Source: Sulfurimonas sp. (GTDB taxonomy: Bacteria > Campylobacterota > Campylobacteria > Campylobacterales > Sulfurimonadaceae). From it: a stretch of 55,519 nt of DNA. A program made the position numbers and the translations under genes. Below the pieces are notes generated by a model. It made no database searches, was not told the DNA's origin, and saw nothing but the letters and a program-made list of their open reading frames with translations. Every line of letters starts with the position of its first letter. Position 1 is the first letter of the stretch. Shown here piece after piece: positions 1 through 14,660 of this stretch. Location of the stretch: NCBI GenBank assembly GCA_026996295.1, contig JALWLL010000110.1, positions 1 through 55,519 of the forward strand, written 5' to 3'.

Positions 1-372
1 CTCTTGGCACCAGGGTTTTAACAGATGGTAGAGTTTTGCTTTACCGATATTTGGATATTTCTCTCTAAGCTGTTTAATCTTATTTACGATCTCTGGAGGT
101 GTTTGGGGTTTACGTTTTCTCTTAGGTGCTTTTGAGTGAGGGTTTAAAGCAAGGATATCTCTGTTACTTTTTTCATAAAGAGCTTTCCATCTGTAGAGCG
201 TTCTTCTACTGATATCGAAAGCTTCAAGGGTTGCTGCTAAACCATACTTCTCAAAAAACTTTAAAATCTTTAATCTTTTTTGTGCGGTATCTGTTTCCAT
301 ATCCCAAAGATAACATACTCTTTGGAAATTTTTAAAACCTTTTAGTCCATGAAACAGGTAATCTGTCTGCAT
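1..372 (-). CDS. Transposase / integrase-core protein, N-terminal part (cut by window edge)
   Basis: Reading back from an ATG at 372 gives 124 uninterrupted codons that run off the left end of the window. The protein has a homeodomain-like helix-turn-helix at about residues 35-65 (…TLEAFDISRRTLYRWK…), then a basic linker (KAPKRKRKP) and a second helix-turn-helix-like segment (NKIKQLREKYPNIGKAKLYHLL). This is the usual front half of IS481/IS3-type transposases, which carry an rve integrase core behind such domains; that core would lie outside the window. A purine-rich ribosome site (AAGGAG) precedes the ATG. The gene marks the mobile nature of the region. The exact IS family cannot be fixed from the N-terminus alone. 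Confidence 0.75.
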   Translation of the reverse strand, partial: MQTDYLFHGLKGFKNFQRVCYLWDMETDTAQKRLKILKFFEKYGLAATLEAFDISRRTLYRWKALYEKSNRDILALNPHSKAPKRKRKPQTPPEIVNKIKQLREKYPNIGKAKLYHLLKPWCQE

Positions 373-427
373 ATTCACTCCTTATTGGAGTGCCATATGT
401 TTCTGAACTTATGTATTTTTTCAAATA

Positions 428-456
428 GGAGTATATTGGATCATCCTATATACTCC
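428..456. repeat. 9-bp perfect inverted repeat at the transposase/ardA junction
   Basis: GGAGTATAT at 428-436 is complementary to ATATACTCC at 448-456, with an 11-base loop. It overlaps the stop codon of ardA (441-443). It could end the ardA transcript or be a relic of an insertion-element end. There is no T-run, so terminator function is weak. Confidence 0.4.
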
Positions 457-971
457 CAAAAAATCCCCTCATCATCCCTAAAATAGCTCCCATTGATCTC
501 CATATCACGCCCAAGCGCCTCATAATCAAAATATCCCTGCAAATTCTCTGGCATTCTTTGTAGTAGTCCGCTCTCTTCAATATAATTGTAAGCGATATCT
601 TCCATACTATTTTCACCAGTACAAATTATATTTTCAAGATTTTCTATAGCTTCATCTATAGAGTTTACTATATAGTTTTCAAGCATCATTTTCACTGCCA
701 TTTTCTCACTTTCGTCCAACTCTTCAATTTTTTGTGCAATTTCATTGAGTTCATCAAGGCTGTCGTATTCGTCGATTTTCATATAATCACACTCAAAATC
801 TGAGATAAAATACTCTTCGTGTATATGGGCATGTTTGCAAACTTGTTGCCCTTTTTGCAACTCGTTTTGTATGGCTTGTGTAAGCTCCTCTTTGCTCATT
901 GGCAATTCATACCAACTTCCAACCAAATGACCGTTATTGTAAGCCTCTAAGTCTGTGATATAAACTCTCAT
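441..971 (-). CDS. ardA: Antirestriction protein ArdA
   Basis: The 176-residue product matches the ArdA family in length and plan. It starts with the typical beta strand and YNNG…GxW signature (residues 11-20) and is strongly acidic throughout (for example DELNEIAQKIEELDESEK, and the EDIAYNYIEE segment). ArdA proteins are elongated DNA mimics that bind and block type I restriction enzymes when mobile DNA enters a new host. The start is supported by AAAGGATC just upstream of the ATG. The gene sits in a mobile island that itself carries a type I restriction locus. ArdA genes usually belong to the leading region of conjugative elements. The DNA immediately upstream (1012-1657) is an unusual folded, non-coding tract. 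Confidence 0.92.
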   Translation of the reverse strand: MRVYITDLEAYNNGHLVGSWYELPMSKEELTQAIQNELQKGQQVCKHAHIHEEYFISDFECDYMKIDEYDSLDELNEIAQKIEELDESEKMAVKMMLENYIVNSIDEAIENLENIICTGENSMEDIAYNYIEESGLLQRMPENLQGYFDYEALGRDMEINGSYFRDDEGIFWEYIG

Positions 972-1042
972 GATGTGATCCTTTTATCAAATGTTTTCGT
1001 AAAATATTTGGCGACTATAAGTCGAAAGCAGCGAAGTTGAAA

Positions 1043-1198
1043 AAACTTCAAGACTCCCTTGTTCTTTTGGGCTTAAATGCCCTTTTGAACAAAGACAAAG
1101 AATTGCACTATGCTTGCAGAAAAATAAAAGAAGGTTTATTTTTTATGTCAGCTTTGCAGTGCATTAAAATTCTCTTGTTTCAAAAGGGCTTGAAGTTT
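1043..1198 (+). other. 5' domain of the structured element: four nested helices with an alternative fold
   Basis: Bases 1043-1052 pair with 1189-1198 (10 bp). Inside, 1079-1090 pair with 1177-1189 (12 bp, one bulged T), then 1104-1109 with 1158-1163, then 1120-1128 with 1135-1143 (9 bp). Competing local hairpins exist: GAAGTT 1033-1038 with 1044-1049, and TTGTTC/GGGC 1059-1072 with 1079-1092. The two sets are mutually exclusive, so the domain may switch between folds. Confidence 0.55.
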
Positions 1199-1309
1199 AA
1201 AAGAAGCAACAAAAATCAAAAAAAGATTGAACGCAAGTGAAATCCACCTTGTAGATAAATAGAAAAGCAATCCAGCTTTTCTTTACCTTGCGAGAGATCA
1301 CGAAGAGAA

Positions 1310-1355
1310 GATATTTTTAAAGAAATTACCTGGGAGGTGATTTTTTAAAAATGTC
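1310..1355 (+). other. 21-bp hairpin of the structured element
   Basis: The arm 1310-1331 pairs with 1335-1355 around a GGG loop, leaving one bulged G. Two of the pairs are G-U on the + strand (they would be A-C on the other strand). Two independent wobble pairs that keep the helix intact are what selection on a folded + strand would leave. Confidence 0.6.
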
Positions 1356-1364
1356 GTAACGGAA

Positions 1365-1574
1365 TGTGGGCGCGTCTGGATTCTCCAGACCCCGATGGCT
1401 CAAACCGTTCAGTTTAGACAGCCAGTTGCCCGGAGGCAAGTTGTGGATAAACTTGATGGTGGTCGAGTTTTGATTAAAAGAAAATGTTAACGCTCGCCAC
1501 TGCGTTAATTTTTTGTTTTCAACAAACACTCGATGGGACATCGGGGTCGGGAGGTAACTCCTGACGCGCCCACA
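1365..1574 (+). other. Closed multibranched domain of the structured element
   Basis: TGTGGGCGCGTC (1365-1376) pairs perfectly with GACGCGCCCACA (1563-1574). Inside it GACCCCGATG (1388-1397) pairs perfectly with CATCGGGGTC (1539-1548). Further stems are 1375-1380/1384-1389 (competes for two bases), GGAG-GTAA-CTCC at 1550-1561 (a GNRA tetraloop on this strand), TTGCC/GGCAA at 1426-1439, CAAGTT/AACTTG at 1437-1455, GTCGAGT/ACTCGAT at 1462-1534 (one G-U), TTAACGC/GCGTTAA at 1487-1508 and TTTGTT/AACAAA at 1512-1526. The layout is an RNA-like closed, branched domain. Confidence 0.65.
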
Positions 1575-1616
1575 AGGTGATAACACCGACCTTAGGAGGT
1601 TTTAGCACCGCAATAT

Positions 1617-1657
1617 CATTTAAAAGTTTGTTTACGAGTTAAATAAACTTTTAAATG
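1617..1657 (+). other. 18-bp hairpin at the 3' end of the structured element
   Basis: Bases 1617-1634 pair with 1640-1657 around a CGAGT loop, with a single G-U on the + strand. There is no T-run after it, so it is not a classical terminator for a + strand RNA. It lies just past the stop of the relaxation-like gene (1663) and could also protect the 3' end of that transcript. Confidence 0.5.
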
Positions 1658-1662
1658 GAGTA

Positions 1663-2328
1663 TCAAATAGGAGTTTCAAACAAACTCTGCTCCTGCGGAG
1701 TTGGCTTGATCTGTCCTGTTTGATCAATATTTTTTATCAGATCATCAACGCTGATAAAAAAGAGTTTATGCCATTTTGGCATAATGGTTGCAAAGGGTTT
1801 TATCTTCTCTTTGGAAGTTAAAACATAGATGATTGCATCGGGGTTATCCTTTGCAACGAGCTGCATGAGCTTAGCATATCTCGGAGCTGATTTTTTCGTT
1901 AGCTCCACCTCGATATTAATTTTATTGCCAGATTCATTTGTAAAAATGAAGTCTGGAATATGGTGCAATTTCCCTTTATGGATATAAACCGTTGTTCTCT
2001 CAACAGTACCGATTTTAGATAAATGAAAATCAACGATTTGCTCGATGATATTATGCTGGATAGTTGTACGATTGAGTTTAGCGTTTCGTGGTGTTATATC
2101 GAAATCGTTTTCAAGCATCGATTTTGTGTCGGAGGTAAGCACTATTGCACGGCGGGGTTTCATGAGAGTTGTATTCCAATAGGTGATAAGATTTTGCTTT
2201 GCTAAAATATTCATCCGATTTCGTGCAACTTGCTCGTTTGTAAAAAAAGTTTTTGCAAGTACTTCGATATAACTTTTACCGTATTTGTTGATAAACTTGA
2301 AAATCTCGATATCTCTATCTGTAATCAT
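1663..2328 (-). CDS. Winged-helix protein of replication-relaxation type
   Basis: The 221-residue protein has an N-terminal winged-helix segment (residues 1-70: ITDRDIEIFKFINKYG… EQVARNRMNILAKQNLITYW). A C-terminal alpha/beta domain follows in which a PD…(I)EVELTKK pattern (about residues 124-145) resembles a PD-(D/E)xK nuclease-like fold. This architecture is typical of replication-relaxation or mobilisation accessory proteins encoded beside VirD4-type coupling ATPases, which help a relaxase act at oriT. The start codon overlaps the end of the coupling-protein reading frame by four bases (ATGA), so the two are translationally coupled. Whether the nuclease-like site is active cannot be told. 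No relaxase gene is visible in the window. Confidence 0.6.
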   Translation of the reverse strand: MITDRDIEIFKFINKYGKSYIEVLAKTFFTNEQVARNRMNILAKQNLITYWNTTLMKPRRAIVLTSDTKSMLENDFDITPRNAKLNRTTIQHNIIEQIVDFHLSKIGTVERTTVYIHKGKLHHIPDFIFTNESGNKINIEVELTKKSAPRYAKLMQLVAKDNPDAIIYVLTSKEKIKPFATIMPKWHKLFFISVDDLIKNIDQTGQIKPTPQEQSLFETPI

Positions 2329-3856
2329 AATTGAAGCTCCTTTTTTGGCTCTTGCACCACTTCATCAAAGCTCTCTTGTTTTATCTCGACTCTAAAATCT
2401 TTTGAAAGTTGTGAAACTTCTGGCTCAATTACCAATTTGTCGTGTTTTGACCAGTCAAATTTTTGCTCTACTTCAATATGCCAAGTTTGCACTATCACAG
2501 GTGTATTGATTGATTCGGCAATTAACACAGCAACTCTGTCTCGCTTGAGTGCTCGAAGTCGTGTAATATTCAGTAGCGGTTCTTGAATTTGGCGGATAGT
2601 AACATCTGATTGATGTTTTGTGGTTTGTGTTACAAGCTCAAAACCTGAAATTTTTTCGATATACTCAAGTGTTTCGATATCACTACTTTTGTAAAAAAGT
2701 TTTGTTTGGCAATTTGAAAGGATTGGATTTTTGATTGTTTCATCATTTAGTTGTGCCAAATCTTGCAGTGCCAAGATAAAATGTACACCAAACCCTGCTA
2801 TCGTTGAGAGGCTATCTGAGAGTGTTTTTGTAGCGTAAAAACTTACTTCATCAGCTATCACTATGCAATTTGCTCTTTTTTTCTTGGCTTTTTGGATGAT
2901 ATCGACTTGCAATATTTTAAGCATTTTTAGACTCGCTTCATCCATCTGGTCTGCTTGTATATAGATGACTTGTCCATTGTATAGCGCATCTGAAATATCT
3001 ATGTGTGTAAAAATATTTGCATCACATAGCTCTAAAATGGTTTGATGCAACCCTTTAAGGGTAGAAATTTCATCAAATGAGAGTTCTATTTTTGGAACAA
3101 ATCTGGATCAAAGTAGCGTTTTGCATATCGCTCTATCAGATCCATATTTGGTTTGTTTTTTGAGATTTCGTGATTATAGTTTTGGGTGGCTGACAAATCT
3201 AAATAGAGGTACTTAATGAAGTTCGCAAAGCTTTTGTAGTTCATCTCAAATTCGATATCCAGCAAGGATAATGAGTTTAAAAATATATCGACTACTTTTT
3301 TTAAAAGTGTCCGCTCATTACGACGATAAAAGTCGGATTTTGGATCGCCAGATGGGGCTAAATCGAGTGCAACGATAAGCTTGTTTGCAAACTCTCTGTG
3401 TGTATCGGATTTGTCGAATCCTGAGTAGGAAAAATTATTTGGATATGATGCGATAATGAGATCATCTATCCTGTTTTGTCTATGAAGTTCTTCAAAAATT
3501 ACCTGAGGTAAAAAATCATCTTTTTTTGGATCAATAACAATAACCCCTTTTCCCTGTTTAAGGGCTTCTACGACTCTATGTGATAGTGCCACACCTTTTG
3601 CAGACCTTGTAGGTCCGCAATATAGTAAATGTGTACTATCTTCATATGGTAGATAAATCGGAGATTTTGAGTGCAACTCAAGACCGAAAAATTGTTGCTC
3701 TACATTTAAAAAATCAAGTGGATTGAAAGGAATATGTACTTTGTGTAGCTCATCTTTCGCAAATTGAACAGATGTTAGCCCTCGACCGTATGCACTTGAT
3801 GGTGCATATTGGTCAAAGTTGAGCGTTTTTTGAGGTTTCGTTTTTTTAAAAAACAT
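2325..3856 (-). pseudogene. VirD4/TraG-type coupling ATPase, split by a -1 frameshift
   Basis: Two adjacent frames together make one coupling protein of about 510 residues. The first (3856 to 3086) holds the Walker A loop GPTRSAKG (residues 81-88) and the strand VIVIDPKKDD. The second (to 2325) holds Walker B CIVIADEVSF and the LALQDLAQL motif of the TraG/TraD family. The first frame meets TAG at 3086 right after CCAAAAA. Moving to the -1 frame there continues directly as KIELSFDEI… into the second frame. A lost A in that A-run explains the break; ribosomal slippage on AAA before the stop or a sequencing error are alternatives. Coupling proteins pump relaxase-bound DNA to a type IV secretion channel. 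No VirB channel genes are visible here. Confidence 0.8.
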
Positions 3857-3857
3857 A

Positions 3858-4157
3858 TCATTTGCTCCATTTTTCGTAAGTTTTCAAAAGCAACAAAGCA
3901 ATAATACCTGCAATATTCATATACGCAAACAGTTCATTTTCTGGATGAAATGGACTGAGTTTGGAAAGGATTTCTATTAGTTTTGGATATTTTTCTGGTT
4001 CTAAAAATACAGTGCCACTATAAAAATAGGATGCACTACTAATACCCATTAAAAAAAGTGTGAATATTAAAGTAGTAGTTGTTTTGAGTTGCTTATAGAA
4101 TATCTTATCTTTGATCTCGGTAATTTGCTTACGACTTAGATCATAATCATTAAGCAT
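3858..4157 (-). CDS. Small membrane protein with two transmembrane segments
   Basis: A 99-residue protein with a short basic N-terminal tail, a membrane span at about residues 26-48, a loop with LSPFHPENE, and a second span at about 78-93. It ends one base before the coupling ATPase frame begins and overlaps the upstream gene by 22 bases, so it belongs to the same transcription unit. I recognise no family. Position beside a coupling ATPase suggests an accessory membrane component of mobilisation, but this is inference. Confidence 0.65.
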   Translation of the reverse strand: MLNDYDLSRKQITEIKDKIFYKQLKTTTTLIFTLFLMGISSASYFYSGTVFLEPEKYPKLIEILSKLSPFHPENELFAYMNIAGIIALLLLKTYEKWSK

Positions 4158-9309: not shown

Positions 9310-9920
9310 GCTATCTCCTTATACATTTTGGCCAAACCAATTTTACCAAAACCGTTATAGACCCATTCTTTAAAATCTATATTGTCATCTTTTAGATAAT
9401 GCAAACTAATTGAAAATGGGTTATTTTTAATTGCTTTTTCTATTTCCTCTATCGACATATTTTTAATTTCTCGTAAGTACCTTTGTATTGCTATTTTTAT
9501 TAAACTTTCATCTTTAGCACTTGCAAATTTGAAAAACATTTTTTTCCATACTACAAGACCATCCCATGCAGCCTCCAATTGAATCTCATCAAAGTTATTT
9601 CTACGATATGCTTCTAGTTCTTTCACATGAATAGAAGAAGCAATCTTCTTTCCTTGAAATTCATCTTTTAAAATAAAATACTCATGCTTTACAACTTTAC
9701 CTATCTCTTCTTGCTTGGATAGTAGTTCTTTATTTCTAAAATATGCTCTTTCTATATCTCGTTGCAACATGCACGAACTATTTTTATCAAAAACTTTAAT
9801 GAAAACTTTTTTAGTATCTGGAGTTTCGCAATGACTTACAACATTATTTGTAACAATTAAATTGTCGTCTTTATAAATATTCTCTATATCACTATTACTT
9901 ATCAAATCGTTACAAGACAT
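9306..9920 (-). CDS. GNAT-like acetyltransferase-fold protein in the hsd locus
   Basis: The 204-residue protein shows the order of a GNAT fold. There is a beta hairpin (KKVFIKVFDKN), then a central segment YFILKDEFQGKKIASSI (about residues 102-118) that matches the acetyl-CoA loop pattern (Q/R)-x-x-G-x-(G/A). A helix, a strand (EIQLEAAWDG) and WKKMFFKFA, equivalent to the usual 'GF' strand, follow. The glycine-rich loop is imperfect (QGKKIA), so catalytic ability is uncertain. The C-terminal part is helical. It lies 45 bases behind hsdS and overlaps the 333-residue partner. It could be a modifying toxin, an immunity factor or an accessory of restriction; the fold call is my own pattern match. 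Confidence 0.6.
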   Translation of the reverse strand: MSCNDLISNSDIENIYKDDNLIVTNNVVSHCETPDTKKVFIKVFDKNSSCMLQRDIERAYFRNKELLSKQEEIGKVVKHEYFILKDEFQGKKIASSIHVKELEAYRRNNFDEIQLEAAWDGLVVWKKMFFKFASAKDESLIKIAIQRYLREIKNMSIEEIEKAIKNNPFSISLHYLKDDNIDFKEWVYNGFGKIGLAKMYKEIA

Positions 9921-9965: not shown

Positions 9966-11153
9966 TTAAAAATATTTAACTCTCACTTCCCCGCTCATAA
10001 GCTTAGGTAGAAGTGTATCTCTTAGATTTTCAAGAGTTTTTATTTGTTGTTGGTTTTTCCTTTGTTTCAAATAGTTTGGTTCTAATAGTTTTGAAAATTC
10101 TTTCATCTTTTCAATAGATGGTGTAAAGAAACTAATATTGAAAATATCTTCAGGCTTAACTCGTTGATGGCTCCCGCTTGTTCCTGAAGCTGACATAGCC
10201 AATTCATTTTTTACTTTATCTGATTTTAAAAGTGTAGAAATAAAAGGGAAAAGCTCTTTATCGTTTGGTAGTATAACTTGAAATTCAGTTGAACAAATAG
10301 AGTTTTCTTCTGGTTCAAAATATATATCCCAAACCCTTGGAGTTTTAGGATTTAATTTTGACATTAAAATAGAATAAGGTTCTACTCGATACTTATTACT
10401 TTTTATATCTGAACCAAGTTCTTGCAATGGTTCTTTATTTGCATCAAATGCAGGTAAGCTAAAATGTAAAAAACTACCATTTGGATTTTTAGCTGGCTTA
10501 ATACTGATTTTTTTATGAGTTGCAAAATCTCTTATTTCATACTCTTCCCACTCATCCTTAGCCTCTTCAATAAGCCATTGTCTAAAAAGTGTCTGTGCTA
10601 AGCTTTCAAGAGTTTTGTTTTGGTGGTGGAGGAGGTCGATTTTATCATCAAGAGAGCTTAGAACTTCTGCTATTGCTTTTTGTTCTTTTAGTGGGGGGAG
10701 TGAAAAATCAAAACTAGCAAATTGTTTTGCATTTGCTCCAGGTTGGGCAGAACCACTGATAATTCCCTCTACAAACCCTTTCCATTTATATGATTGTAAA
10801 TTATATGCCACATAATAAGGATTCGCTATTTTAGTGTTTATTCTATATCTTATTAAGTATGAGGCAAAAACTGCATTTTGAGTTTTGGTTATTAACTTAT
10901 TGTAGCCAGTTGTCGCACCTGTTCTAGCGATTACAACATCACCAAATTGAAGATTATATTTGTCTTTTTTTTCATCTTCAATAAAGCAATGGGGAACTGT
11001 ATCCCAATTAATTCTATCTGGCACAATATCGGTTATTCTTAAAAATTTAGGTCCACATTCTTCCTGACTTGCACTAGCTGTATATCCATAAGAAATATCG
11101 GTACTGATTTCACCTAGTGTTGTGCAAATCCACTCACCCATCACAAACCCCAT
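9966..11153 (-). CDS. hsdS: Type I restriction specificity subunit
   Basis: 395 residues, normal length, with two half-repeats. The first target-recognition domain (residues 5-150, WICTTLGEISTDISYGYTAS…) ends in a conserved coiled-coil spacer (LPPLKEQKAIAEVLSSLDDKIDLL…ESLAQTLFRQW, about 155-195). The second recognition domain follows (205-370), with a second spacer (KNQQQIKTLENLRDTLLPKLMSGEVRV) at the end. HsdS sets which DNA sequence the HsdM/HsdR complex binds. The start may be ATG at 11153 or, better placed after a GGGG run, the ATG four codons later. The frame is open, but its methylase partner is broken. Confidence 0.93.
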   Translation of the reverse strand: MGFVMGEWICTTLGEISTDISYGYTASASQEECGPKFLRITDIVPDRINWDTVPHCFIEDEKKDKYNLQFGDVVIARTGATTGYNKLITKTQNAVFASYLIRYRINTKIANPYYVAYNLQSYKWKGFVEGIISGSAQPGANAKQFASFDFSLPPLKEQKAIAEVLSSLDDKIDLLHHQNKTLESLAQTLFRQWLIEEAKDEWEEYEIRDFATHKKISIKPAKNPNGSFLHFSLPAFDANKEPLQELGSDIKSNKYRVEPYSILMSKLNPKTPRVWDIYFEPEENSICSTEFQVILPNDKELFPFISTLLKSDKVKNELAMSASGTSGSHQRVKPEDIFNISFFTPSIEKMKEFSKLLEPNYLKQRKNQQQIKTLENLRDTLLPKLMSGEVRVKYF

Positions 11154-11236: not shown

Positions 11237-12545
11237 CTACACATTTACAATCACCTTCGCCAAATTCTCATTTATCCGTTTATTTAGCTCTTGCTCCTGC
11301 TTCATCTGCTCTTGTAACTCTTTTTGAAGCTCCAAAAATCGCTCTTTAAAATCAAACTCATCATCCACCTCTTCAAGTCCTACATATCGCCCAGGAGTAA
11401 GCACATAGTTTAACTCTCGTACCTCCTCTAAACTTGCACTTTTACAAAACCCTTTTATATCTTCATACTCTTTGTTATTTTTCCAATTATGATAAATCTG
11501 AGCGATATAGTCAGTATCCTCATGGCTAAACTCTCTAGTTCTTCGGTTGATAAGATGTCCCATATTTCGTGCATCTATAAAGAGTATATCTTTGGTGGTT
11601 CTTCCTCGCTTCATAAACCATATACTTGCTGGGATTTGGGTATTTAAAAAGAGTTTTGCAGGAAGGTTTACTATGCAGTCCACAAGATTGGCTTCGATGA
11701 GGGCTTTTCGTATCTCTCCCTCATTGGAAGTGTTAGAAGTGAGGCTTCCTTTTGCTAAAACAAACCCCGCCGTTCCAGTTGGTGCTAAGTGGTAGAGAAA
11801 GTGTTGTATCCATGCGTAGTTAGCGTTATGTGGTTTGGTTTGACTCTTGACCATAGATAGATATATCGTTAATTTTGCCTTGATGTTTACGCACAAACTT
11901 TTCAGATTGTATGAACATACCGCCACTACCACAACAAGGATCAAAGACTCTGCCTTTATATGGCTCTAACATTTTTACAAGAAGCTCAACTACACTTTTA
12001 GGCGTATAAAACTGCCCACCCTGTTTGCCTTCAGCAAGTGCAAACTCCCCTAGAAAGTACTCAAACACATGACCAAGTACATCGGCACTTCTTGCTTTTG
12101 CATCCCTAAAGGCAATATTACCTATGAGGTCTATAAGCCCACCAAGAGATTTGGAGTCTAAGTTCTCTTTTGCATATACTTTTGGGAGTACTCCTTTGAG
12201 CGAGCTATTTTCTTTCTCTATGGCATCCATCGCCTCATCAACAATTTTGCCGATGGTAGGGAGTTTTGCACAAGACAAAAGAAACGACCATCTAGCAGTC
12301 GGGGGAACAAAAAATACATTTTCAGCTTTATACTCATCTCTATCTTCAGGGTCAGCACCTACATATTCACCCTCACCAGCTTTGAGTTTGTCATACAGCT
12401 CTTCAAAACTATCAGAGATATACTTTAAAAACACAAGCCCCATCACCACATGCTTATACTCAGCAGCATCAATATTTTTTCGCAGTTTATCTGCGGCTTT
12501 CCATAGTTGTTTTTCGAGTGATTCTTCTTGTTTTTGCTTTGCCAT
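11237..12545 (-). pseudogene. hsdM: Type I methylase subunit HsdM with internal deletion and frameshift
   Basis: The N-terminal frame (from ATG 12545 to 11826) carries the helical HsdM domain ([21 protein letters not shown]…) and AdoMet motif I ([11 protein letters not shown]), and runs up to [10 protein letters not shown] before a stop. The C-terminal frame resumes at about 11836 with NANYAWIQHFLYHLAPTGTAGF and continues normally to 11237. In intact HsdM proteins roughly 60-70 residues, including the catalytic (N/D)PPF motif, stand between GQESN-x-TT and GNANYAW. Here they are absent and the frames no longer match. A tandem AAACC at the junction (CAAACCAAACC) suggests deletion between short repeats. 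The subunit cannot methylate; since HsdR needs HsdM-HsdS, restriction should be lost too. Confidence 0.9.
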
Positions 12546-12560
12546 ATTTTTGTATTCCAA

Positions 12561-14145: not shown

Positions 14146-14230
14146 TGGTGCGGACGAAAGGACTTGAACCTTCACACCTTGCGGCACCAGATCCTAAGTC
14201 TGGCGTGTCTACCAATTTCACCACGTCCGC
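14146..14230 (-). tRNA. tRNA-Leu (UAG)
   Basis: Cloverleaf with acceptor GCGGACG/CGTCCGC, anticodon stem CCAGA/TCTGG around CTTAGGA (anticodon TAG), a class II variable arm (TGCCGCAAGGTGT) and T-loop GTTCAAGTC. CCA is encoded at 14146-14148. It is the last tRNA of the cluster and its 3' end faces the island, the usual place for integration. Confidence 0.95.
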
Positions 14231-14272
14231 GTGGATAAGTTTTTAGTGTCACTTCTGACAAACAATATGAAG

Positions 14273-14349
<77 letters not shown>

Positions 14350-14359
14350 ATCTAAATAA

Positions 14360-14436
14360 TGGTGCGCCCGATAGGGTTCGAACCTATAACCGTCGGTGCC
14401 GAAAACCGATACTCTATCCAGTTGAGCCACGGGCGC
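14360..14436 (-). tRNA. tRNA-Arg (UCG)
   Basis: Acceptor GCGCCCG/CGGGCGC, anticodon stem TCGGT/ACCGA around TTTCGGC (anticodon TCG), T-arm ATAGG-TTCGAAC-CCTAT, encoded CCA. Confidence 0.93.
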
Positions 14437-14477
14437 CACAATATTTTTAATTTATTATCTATAGTTTTATTATTACA

Positions 14478-14555
14478 TGGGGTGAGATACGGGATTCGAA
14501 CCCGCGACCCCCGGCACCACAAACCAGTGCTCTAACCAGCTGAGCTAATCTCACC
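14478..14555 (-). tRNA. tRNA-His (GUG)
   Basis: Acceptor GTGAGAT/ATCTCAC with an extra G at position -1 facing discriminator C, the identity mark of tRNA-His. The anticodon loop TTGTGGT gives GTG. T-arm and encoded CCA are present. Confidence 0.95.
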
Positions 14556-14582
14556 ATACAATCTAAATAAACAAAAATAAAA

Positions 14583-14660
14583 TGGTCGGGGTGAAAGGAC
14601 TCGAACCTTCGGCCCCTTGGTCCCAAACCAAGTACTCTAACCATACTGAGCTACACCCCG
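14583..14660 (-). tRNA. tRNA-Pro (UGG)
   Basis: Acceptor CGGGGTG/CACCCCG, anticodon stem CTTGG/CCAAG around TTTGGGA (anticodon TGG), T-loop GTTCGAGTC, encoded CCA. It is the first gene of the minus-strand tRNA operon. Confidence 0.95.

Follow-up and report, generated by a model that had tools for sequence, protein, structure and literature searches.

Mobilizable elements of the MOBC1 family encode a coupling protein of their own (PMC7431656). In the MOBC relaxase TraX, the N-terminus is a winged helix and the active site resembles that of restriction endonucleases; MOBC relaxases are PD-(D/E)XK enzymes (reviews, PMC12857230). Such relaxases act without a covalent link to DNA, and for the study of their mechanism a fold around the nick motif that is conserved from CloDF13 to Campylobacterota would be a concrete and testable substrate; in the literature that we searched, we found no description of a conserved fold of the MOBC nic domain. 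On the side of gene expression, the closest described system is Frpo, a single-strand promoter of leading-region genes (PMC11541004).

Here we describe a structured region at positions 1012-1657 of a window (the whole stretch of DNA that was analysed, 55,519 nt, forward strand) from Sulfurimonas sp. (GCA_026996295.1, contig JALWLL010000110.1). Given its computed structure, conservation, strand bias, gene linkage and an architecture common to the plasmids CloDF13 and pSULKU04, we put the probability at roughly 65% that this region acts in cis, as folded single-stranded DNA, within an integrated mobilizable element, with a transfer origin (oriT) in its 3' part (module B) and a single-strand promoter in its 5' part (module A). 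Rather than a giant RNA of a new kind, it is most likely a MOBC-type oriT of elaborate fold with a Frpo-like leader attached. The features are as follows (coordinates in the window, strand, description).

441-971, minus: ardA, an anti-restriction gene (Pfam ArdA, E 2e-37), proposed to be driven by module A
982-1212, fold on plus (the ardA template): module A, the ardA leader and proposed single-strand promoter (11 relatives, strand bias)
988-1010, no strand assigned: operator-like palindrome CAAATGTTTTCGTAAAATATTTG (helix 1), adjoining the ardA ribosome-binding site and present in all module A copies
1011-1024, plus: small hairpin GCGACT/AGTCG (helix 2), with a compensatory change to GCACTC/GAGTG in relatives
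1062-1205, plus: long imperfect hairpin of module A (fold, covariation)
1237-1657, plus: module B, the proposed MOBC-type oriT (6 relatives, topology as in pSULKU04 and CloDF13)
1310-1355, plus: hairpin in the 5' part of module B (fold, covariation helix 3)
1365-1376, plus: 5' strand of the outer helix P1, TGTGGGCGCGTC, pairing with 1563-1574 (helix 4)
1388-1397, plus: 5' strand of the enclosed helix P3, GACCCCGATG, pairing perfectly over 10 bp with 1539-1548 (helix 5)
1546-1551, plus: GTCGGG motif, invariant in 6 copies; analogy with CloDF13 places the predicted nick between 1545 and 1546
1550-1561, plus: mini-hairpin GGAG-GTAA-CTCC (helix 8)
1563-1574, plus: 3' strand of P1, GACGCGCCCACA, 12 bp, perfect
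1576-1609, plus: hairpin after P1 (helix 9), with compensatory changes
1617-1657, plus: terminal 18-bp hairpin (helix 10), with no T run after it
1663-2328, minus: MOBC-type relaxase, MobC family replication-relaxation protein (NF041423, pSULKU04 alignment, model)
2325-3856, minus: type IV coupling protein gene, broken in two by a frameshift but intact in the relative G101

The region folds to -234.6 kcal/mol, compared with -150.4 ± 4.7 kcal/mol in dinucleotide shuffles (z -17.9). In a fold scan of window positions 1-4000, strong structure was concentrated at ~1000-1800, and the pairing extends slightly beyond 1657, into the 3' end of the neighbouring gene. A protein-coding explanation was dropped, as the two small open reading frames (67 aa on the plus strand and 86 aa on the minus strand) contain stops or frameshifts in relatives, and no Rfam family matched the region at gathering or relaxed thresholds. 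Because the fold lies far below that of the shuffles, Rfam gives no match and the reading frames are unconserved, the structured stretch is real and non-coding. The original prediction, made from the letters of the window, had described a large, unannotated multi-helix element in mobile DNA beside ardA, devoid of a convincing gene, and this description stands: the structure folds best on the plus strand, compensatory changes accompany it in relatives, and the two perfect long-range helices (P1 and P3) and the terminal hairpin are all present as proposed. A GNRA loop had also been claimed; it exists (GTAA, 1554-1557) but is not conserved, the relatives having TTTA or TTCCA in its place. A dyad (TTTTTTATCAG/CTGATAAAAAA) was also observed at 1730-1761, within the 3'-terminal part of the relaxase gene, with the counterpart TTATTAG/CTAATAA in the relative G113; through it the structure may reach into that gene.

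The same prediction had taken 1012-1657 as one unit and compared it to the single large RNAs OLE, ROOL, GOLLD and HEARO. These are likewise large, ornate and often found in mobile DNA, and the size (~640 nt), fold depth and mobile context of the region would suit such an RNA. However, the stretch matches none of their Rfam covariance models, and its halves occur independently, each tied to different genes, which makes one large ornate RNA exceedingly improbable. The element is real, but it consists of two separable modules with differing distributions, A (~982-1212) and B (~1237-1657), and is not one RNA. Among 228 genomes of the family, one (G101) contains a near-copy of the stretch, a second (G113) a diverged copy of nearly full length and a third (G081) a copy of the 3' part only; a separate set of genomes matches only the 5' 200 bases. 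A wider search added 3' part copies in another family of the order (G498 and G533), and no module A was found in other families of the phylum. All six integrated copies of module B, from two families, adjoin the 3' end of a gene of the 1663-2328 type, with or without ardA nearby, and their neighbours are always the MOBC relaxase gene and a coupling-protein gene. The gene that directly follows module A is always ardA or a small J-domain gene. The halves are therefore separable, module A being tied to ardA and J-domain genes and module B to the relaxase gene. With the whole stretch as query, Blast found no match among plasmids and phages, and an exact-sequence scan of viral contigs was likewise negative; blastn of 1000-1665 against a plasmid collection that includes the F plasmid gave no match either, so that no sequence similarity to known Frpo was found.

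The product of 1663-2328 matches NCBIfam NF041423 with an E value of 1e-11, which is below the cutoff, and is 39% identical to the pSULKU04 relaxase; PLSDB types that plasmid as MOBC. The relaxase model (pLDDT 91; the protein is 221 aa long in the G081 or G498 version) gave weak matches to winged-helix proteins and PD-(D/E)XK nucleases. Judged from these genes, the locus is an integrated mobilizable element that, as in MOBC1, encodes its coupling protein itself. The frameshift in the coupling protein gene lies at window 3050-3086; in G101 (L032 6942-7600) it is the relaxase gene that is split, while the coupling protein gene is intact.

Module B is supported by covariation as well as by its position. 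Over its six copies, 35 of 137 pairs are changed on both sides, compared with 17.7 in shuffles, and a control in which the partners were slid gave at most 8 such pairs; in module A, 13 of 51 pairs are changed on both sides over 11 copies (7.3 in shuffles). GGGGTCGGGAG is invariant across the module B copies. A side hairpin is found in four of the six, and is missing in the window and in G101. A terminator-like hairpin is located mid-element, at 1486-1509.

The closest counterpart of module B is the oriT of CloDF13, a MOBC1 plasmid with relaxase MobC and coupling protein MobB. We take its nick site to be GGGTG/GTCGGG, with GTCGGG directly after the nick, the position being backed by one thing, the exact 11-mer in CloDF13. 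This 11-mer, GGGTGGTCGGG, lies at 9752-9762 in a non-coding region with a fold z of -10.9. The topology there consists of an outer helix, a side hairpin and an enclosed helix whose 3' strand contains the motif, followed by GTCGGGCGTGAGCC-TGAC; the corresponding contexts are GTCGGGAGTTTACTCC-TGAC in module B and GTCGGGCGTTAGCC-AGAC in pSULKU04, and GTCGGG is present in all three. Module B, pSULKU04 and CloDF13 thus have one architecture in common: an outer helix, an enclosed helix with GTCGGG on its 3' strand and a mini-hairpin. Module B further resembles the CloDF13 origin in an outer helix that ends GTC(AG)/CTGAC, in the side hairpin matched in four of its six copies, and in its association with a MOBC relaxase and a dedicated coupling protein. 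By contrast, module B has much larger inner-helix branches and a mostly different sequence, and it belongs to an integrated element of Campylobacterota, where it adjoins the relaxase gene at its 3' end. The 3,421-bp plasmid pSULKU04 (Sulfuricurvum kujiense) shares with the locus a related MOBC relaxase and, with most relatives, a TAGCGT side hairpin. Outside its relaxase gene, only part of module B resembles the integrated elements, the region having the same fold topology and a mostly different sequence. Unlike the locus in the window, pSULKU04 is a replicating plasmid without a coupling protein gene, and its element is inverted relative to the relaxase gene, which is a counterpoint to the oriT reading. 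We consider it very probable that module B contains the oriT; nicking and its position we infer by analogy with CloDF13.

The variable orientation would suit an RNA, and better folding of the plus strand, like the covariation, fits RNA and single-stranded DNA alike. Module B, or both modules together, could then be a plus-strand structured RNA needed for mobilization, for which a precedent exists in sgm-sRNA of Salmonella genomic island 1 (SGI1), a mobilization RNA encoded beside oriT that acts in trans (PMC9299015). Like sgm-sRNA, module B is a structured element beside the oriT or mobilization genes of a mobilizable island; the RNA of SGI1, however, has been demonstrated, whereas one from module B would be hypothetical, and the mobilization proteins are unrelated. 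We regard such an RNA as improbable here, since the conserved core matches the CloDF13 nic region and no Rfam family matches; the variable GNRA loop, the lack of a convincing plus-strand promoter and the lack of a terminator at the element end count against it as weak arguments.

The side hairpin raises a different possibility, namely that module B acts chiefly in priming the second strand in the recipient, as a single-strand origin (sso/ssi), with the oriT elsewhere. The CS-6 consensus of single-strand origins is TAGCG(T/A) (PMC10333310), and this motif is found in the side hairpin of G081, G533, pSULKU04 and CloDF13. The large stem-loop on the predicted transferred strand would also suit an sso, and ICEBs1 is a precedent for an sso in a mobile element (PMC4595007). 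The motif is, however, altered in G113 and G498, the hairpin is absent from the window and G101, and GTCGGG together with its position in the fold is better matched by the CloDF13 oriT; we therefore think it distinctly improbable that priming is the main role of module B. The two functions could coexist in module B: as the side hairpin often carries CS-6, module B may also prime the second strand, which we note as a lead only. A separate scan of genome contigs for a TAGCGT-hairpin pattern gave 53 matches, which were judged to be chance; none was near a MOBC relaxase gene or had a fitting fold.

Returning to the oriT, we built a nic-domain descriptor from the layout of module B, pSULKU04 and CloDF13. 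It found the MOBC plasmid pJBIWA002_4 blind and gave no match in seven control sequences (~156 kb); in the window, it gave one further weak match at 11068. The layout is also fitted by pYR8, as judged by eye, and p34399 fits it too. Four of six further MOBC plasmids (three of these scanned in part) had no true match: Vibrio pVPM09044, E. coli pCh103, Salmonella pCFSAN058591_02, in which one weak 8-bp match lies inside a gene, and Klebsiella pC16KP0050-4. The fold therefore seems to belong to part of the MOBC family. A looser descriptor requiring only GTC is not diagnostic alone, because it also gives background matches in control DNA. At three other MOBC relaxase loci (G124, G059 and G012), all on short contigs, no module B-like structure was found beside the gene. 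In p34399-43.5kb, ~1 kb of very structured DNA (L125:2583-3613, z down to -19.7) was observed upstream of the MOBC relaxase gene, and includes a 14-15 bp outer helix and GGGTGGTCAGTC.

The nic motif names the plus strand, independently of the fold, as the predicted transferred strand. When G-T pairs are allowed, module A gains 13 conserved pairs on the plus strand and none on the minus strand, and module B has 156 pairs on the plus strand versus 115 on the minus strand. In structures of module A, module B and the type 2 leader (see below) that were predicted without G-T pairs, 41 G-T stand against 20 A-C on the strand that is predicted to be transferred (the template), where p = 0.005 is indicative only, the counted sequences being related. 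All 13 structured ardA leaders that were folded have lower energy on the template strand, as do the F-plasmid leaders of ssb (Frpo) and of the antirestriction gene, which served as controls; two ardA loci without a structured leader do not. Of 13 J-domain loci, 10 likewise have the lower energy on the template strand, and the three that do not are weakly structured. On the strength of this bias and of the nic motif, both modules fold on the strand that is predicted to be single-stranded in transfer, the template of ardA.

Module A belongs to a wider set of leaders. A structured leader of one of three types precedes 17 of the 20 ardA genes of the family: leader A at nine loci (one of them weak), the type 2 leader at six and a third kind at two, with none at three (one of these on a contig too short to judge). 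Type 2 (L135-L138, L145 and L148) is ~350 nt long, with a long hairpin, 15 double-change pairs and its best fold on the template strand. The third type is known from two sequences (L139, from Sulfuricurvum kujiense, and L147) and has strong dyads, CTTATCGTT..AACGATAAG in L139. Among homologues of the J-domain gene, leader A is found at three loci and type 2 at at least five; in G498, a J-domain gene with a type 2-like leader was seen by eye. The J-domain proteins are small (~155 aa) and match the domain weakly (L034:476-937, L040:5020-5550, L064:15689-16001 and L165-L176). The type 2 leader is unrelated in sequence to leader A, and each precedes both ardA and J-domain genes. That unrelated leaders interchange before the same two gene families indicates that a shared function is carried by the hairpin. 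J-domain genes with ardA-type leaders are thus candidate early or anti-defence genes.

Could module A be an ordinary double-stranded promoter or messenger leader of ardA (an operator, attenuator or riboswitch) with no single-strand role? Its palindrome beside the ribosome-binding site and its constant place directly upstream of a gene would fit, but a messenger leader should fold best on the minus strand, whereas leader A and type 2 keep more pairs on the template, and such a leader would not account for the exchange of unrelated long hairpins upstream of ardA and J-domain genes. We consider an ordinary leader unlikely. Module A is instead probably a Frpo-like single-strand promoter, an activity that we infer from its likeness to Frpo/ssi of F and ColIb-P9: both are long imperfect hairpins upstream of an antirestriction or ssb gene, and both fold better on the template (transferred) strand. 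The differences are a lack of sequence similarity, another phylum and no clear -35/-10; a scan of the module A hairpin with an E. coli-type consensus gave no convincing match, and promoters of Campylobacterota differ from the E. coli type. Relative to the predicted nick, module A is moreover on the trailing side and so outside the first-entering (leading) region. With a nick between 1545 and 1546 and the plus strand entering 5' end first, ardA would enter last, which is the main difficulty of the single-strand promoter reading; for this reason module A is likened to Frpo in its working and not filed as a member.

In the mechanism that we propose, the adjacent MOBC relaxase would recognize module B as oriT and nick the plus strand at about 1545/1546, in the 3' strand of the enclosed helix, and the plus strand would be exported by the coupling protein of the element via a helper secretion system. 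The fold of module B (outer helix, branched inner helix and mini-hairpin, with a side hairpin in most relatives) would form in the displaced or incoming plus strand and may aid recognition or re-closure by the relaxase. Module A would form its promoter once the plus strand is single-stranded, its hairpin providing double-stranded promoter DNA from which RNA polymerase could transcribe ardA before second-strand synthesis, as Frpo does on F. A broader proposition, which we advance tentatively and consider somewhat doubtful, is that MOBC transfer origins constitute, from CloDF13 to Campylobacterota, a conserved domain that folds as a single strand and whose structure a non-covalent PD-(D/E)XK relaxase reads for nicking and for re-closing the transferred strand, and that Campylobacterota have in addition at least three unrelated, interchangeable families of single-strand promoters before anti-restriction genes and a J-domain family that is a candidate for a new early role, in anti-defence. 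The range of single-strand promoters, which are known chiefly from plasmids of enterobacteria, would then extend to another phylum, with unrelated, interchangeable versions before the same genes, and the leaders would single out the small J-domain proteins as candidates for early expression from mobile DNA that enters a cell. On this reading, what looks like a giant structured 'RNA' in a mobile element can in fact be a DNA site that folds.

The contig begins inside an apparent insertion-sequence transposase (window 1-400, by eye), so that the left end of the element is out of view; no integrase gene was recognized in the window. At 11237-12560, a type I restriction modification gene (hsdM-like) is seemingly split into two overlapping frames, as judged from translations only, and adjoins long hsdR-like and hsdS-like open reading frames. 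Five tRNA genes are clustered at 14149-14660, at the right side of the island, and mark a possible integration site.
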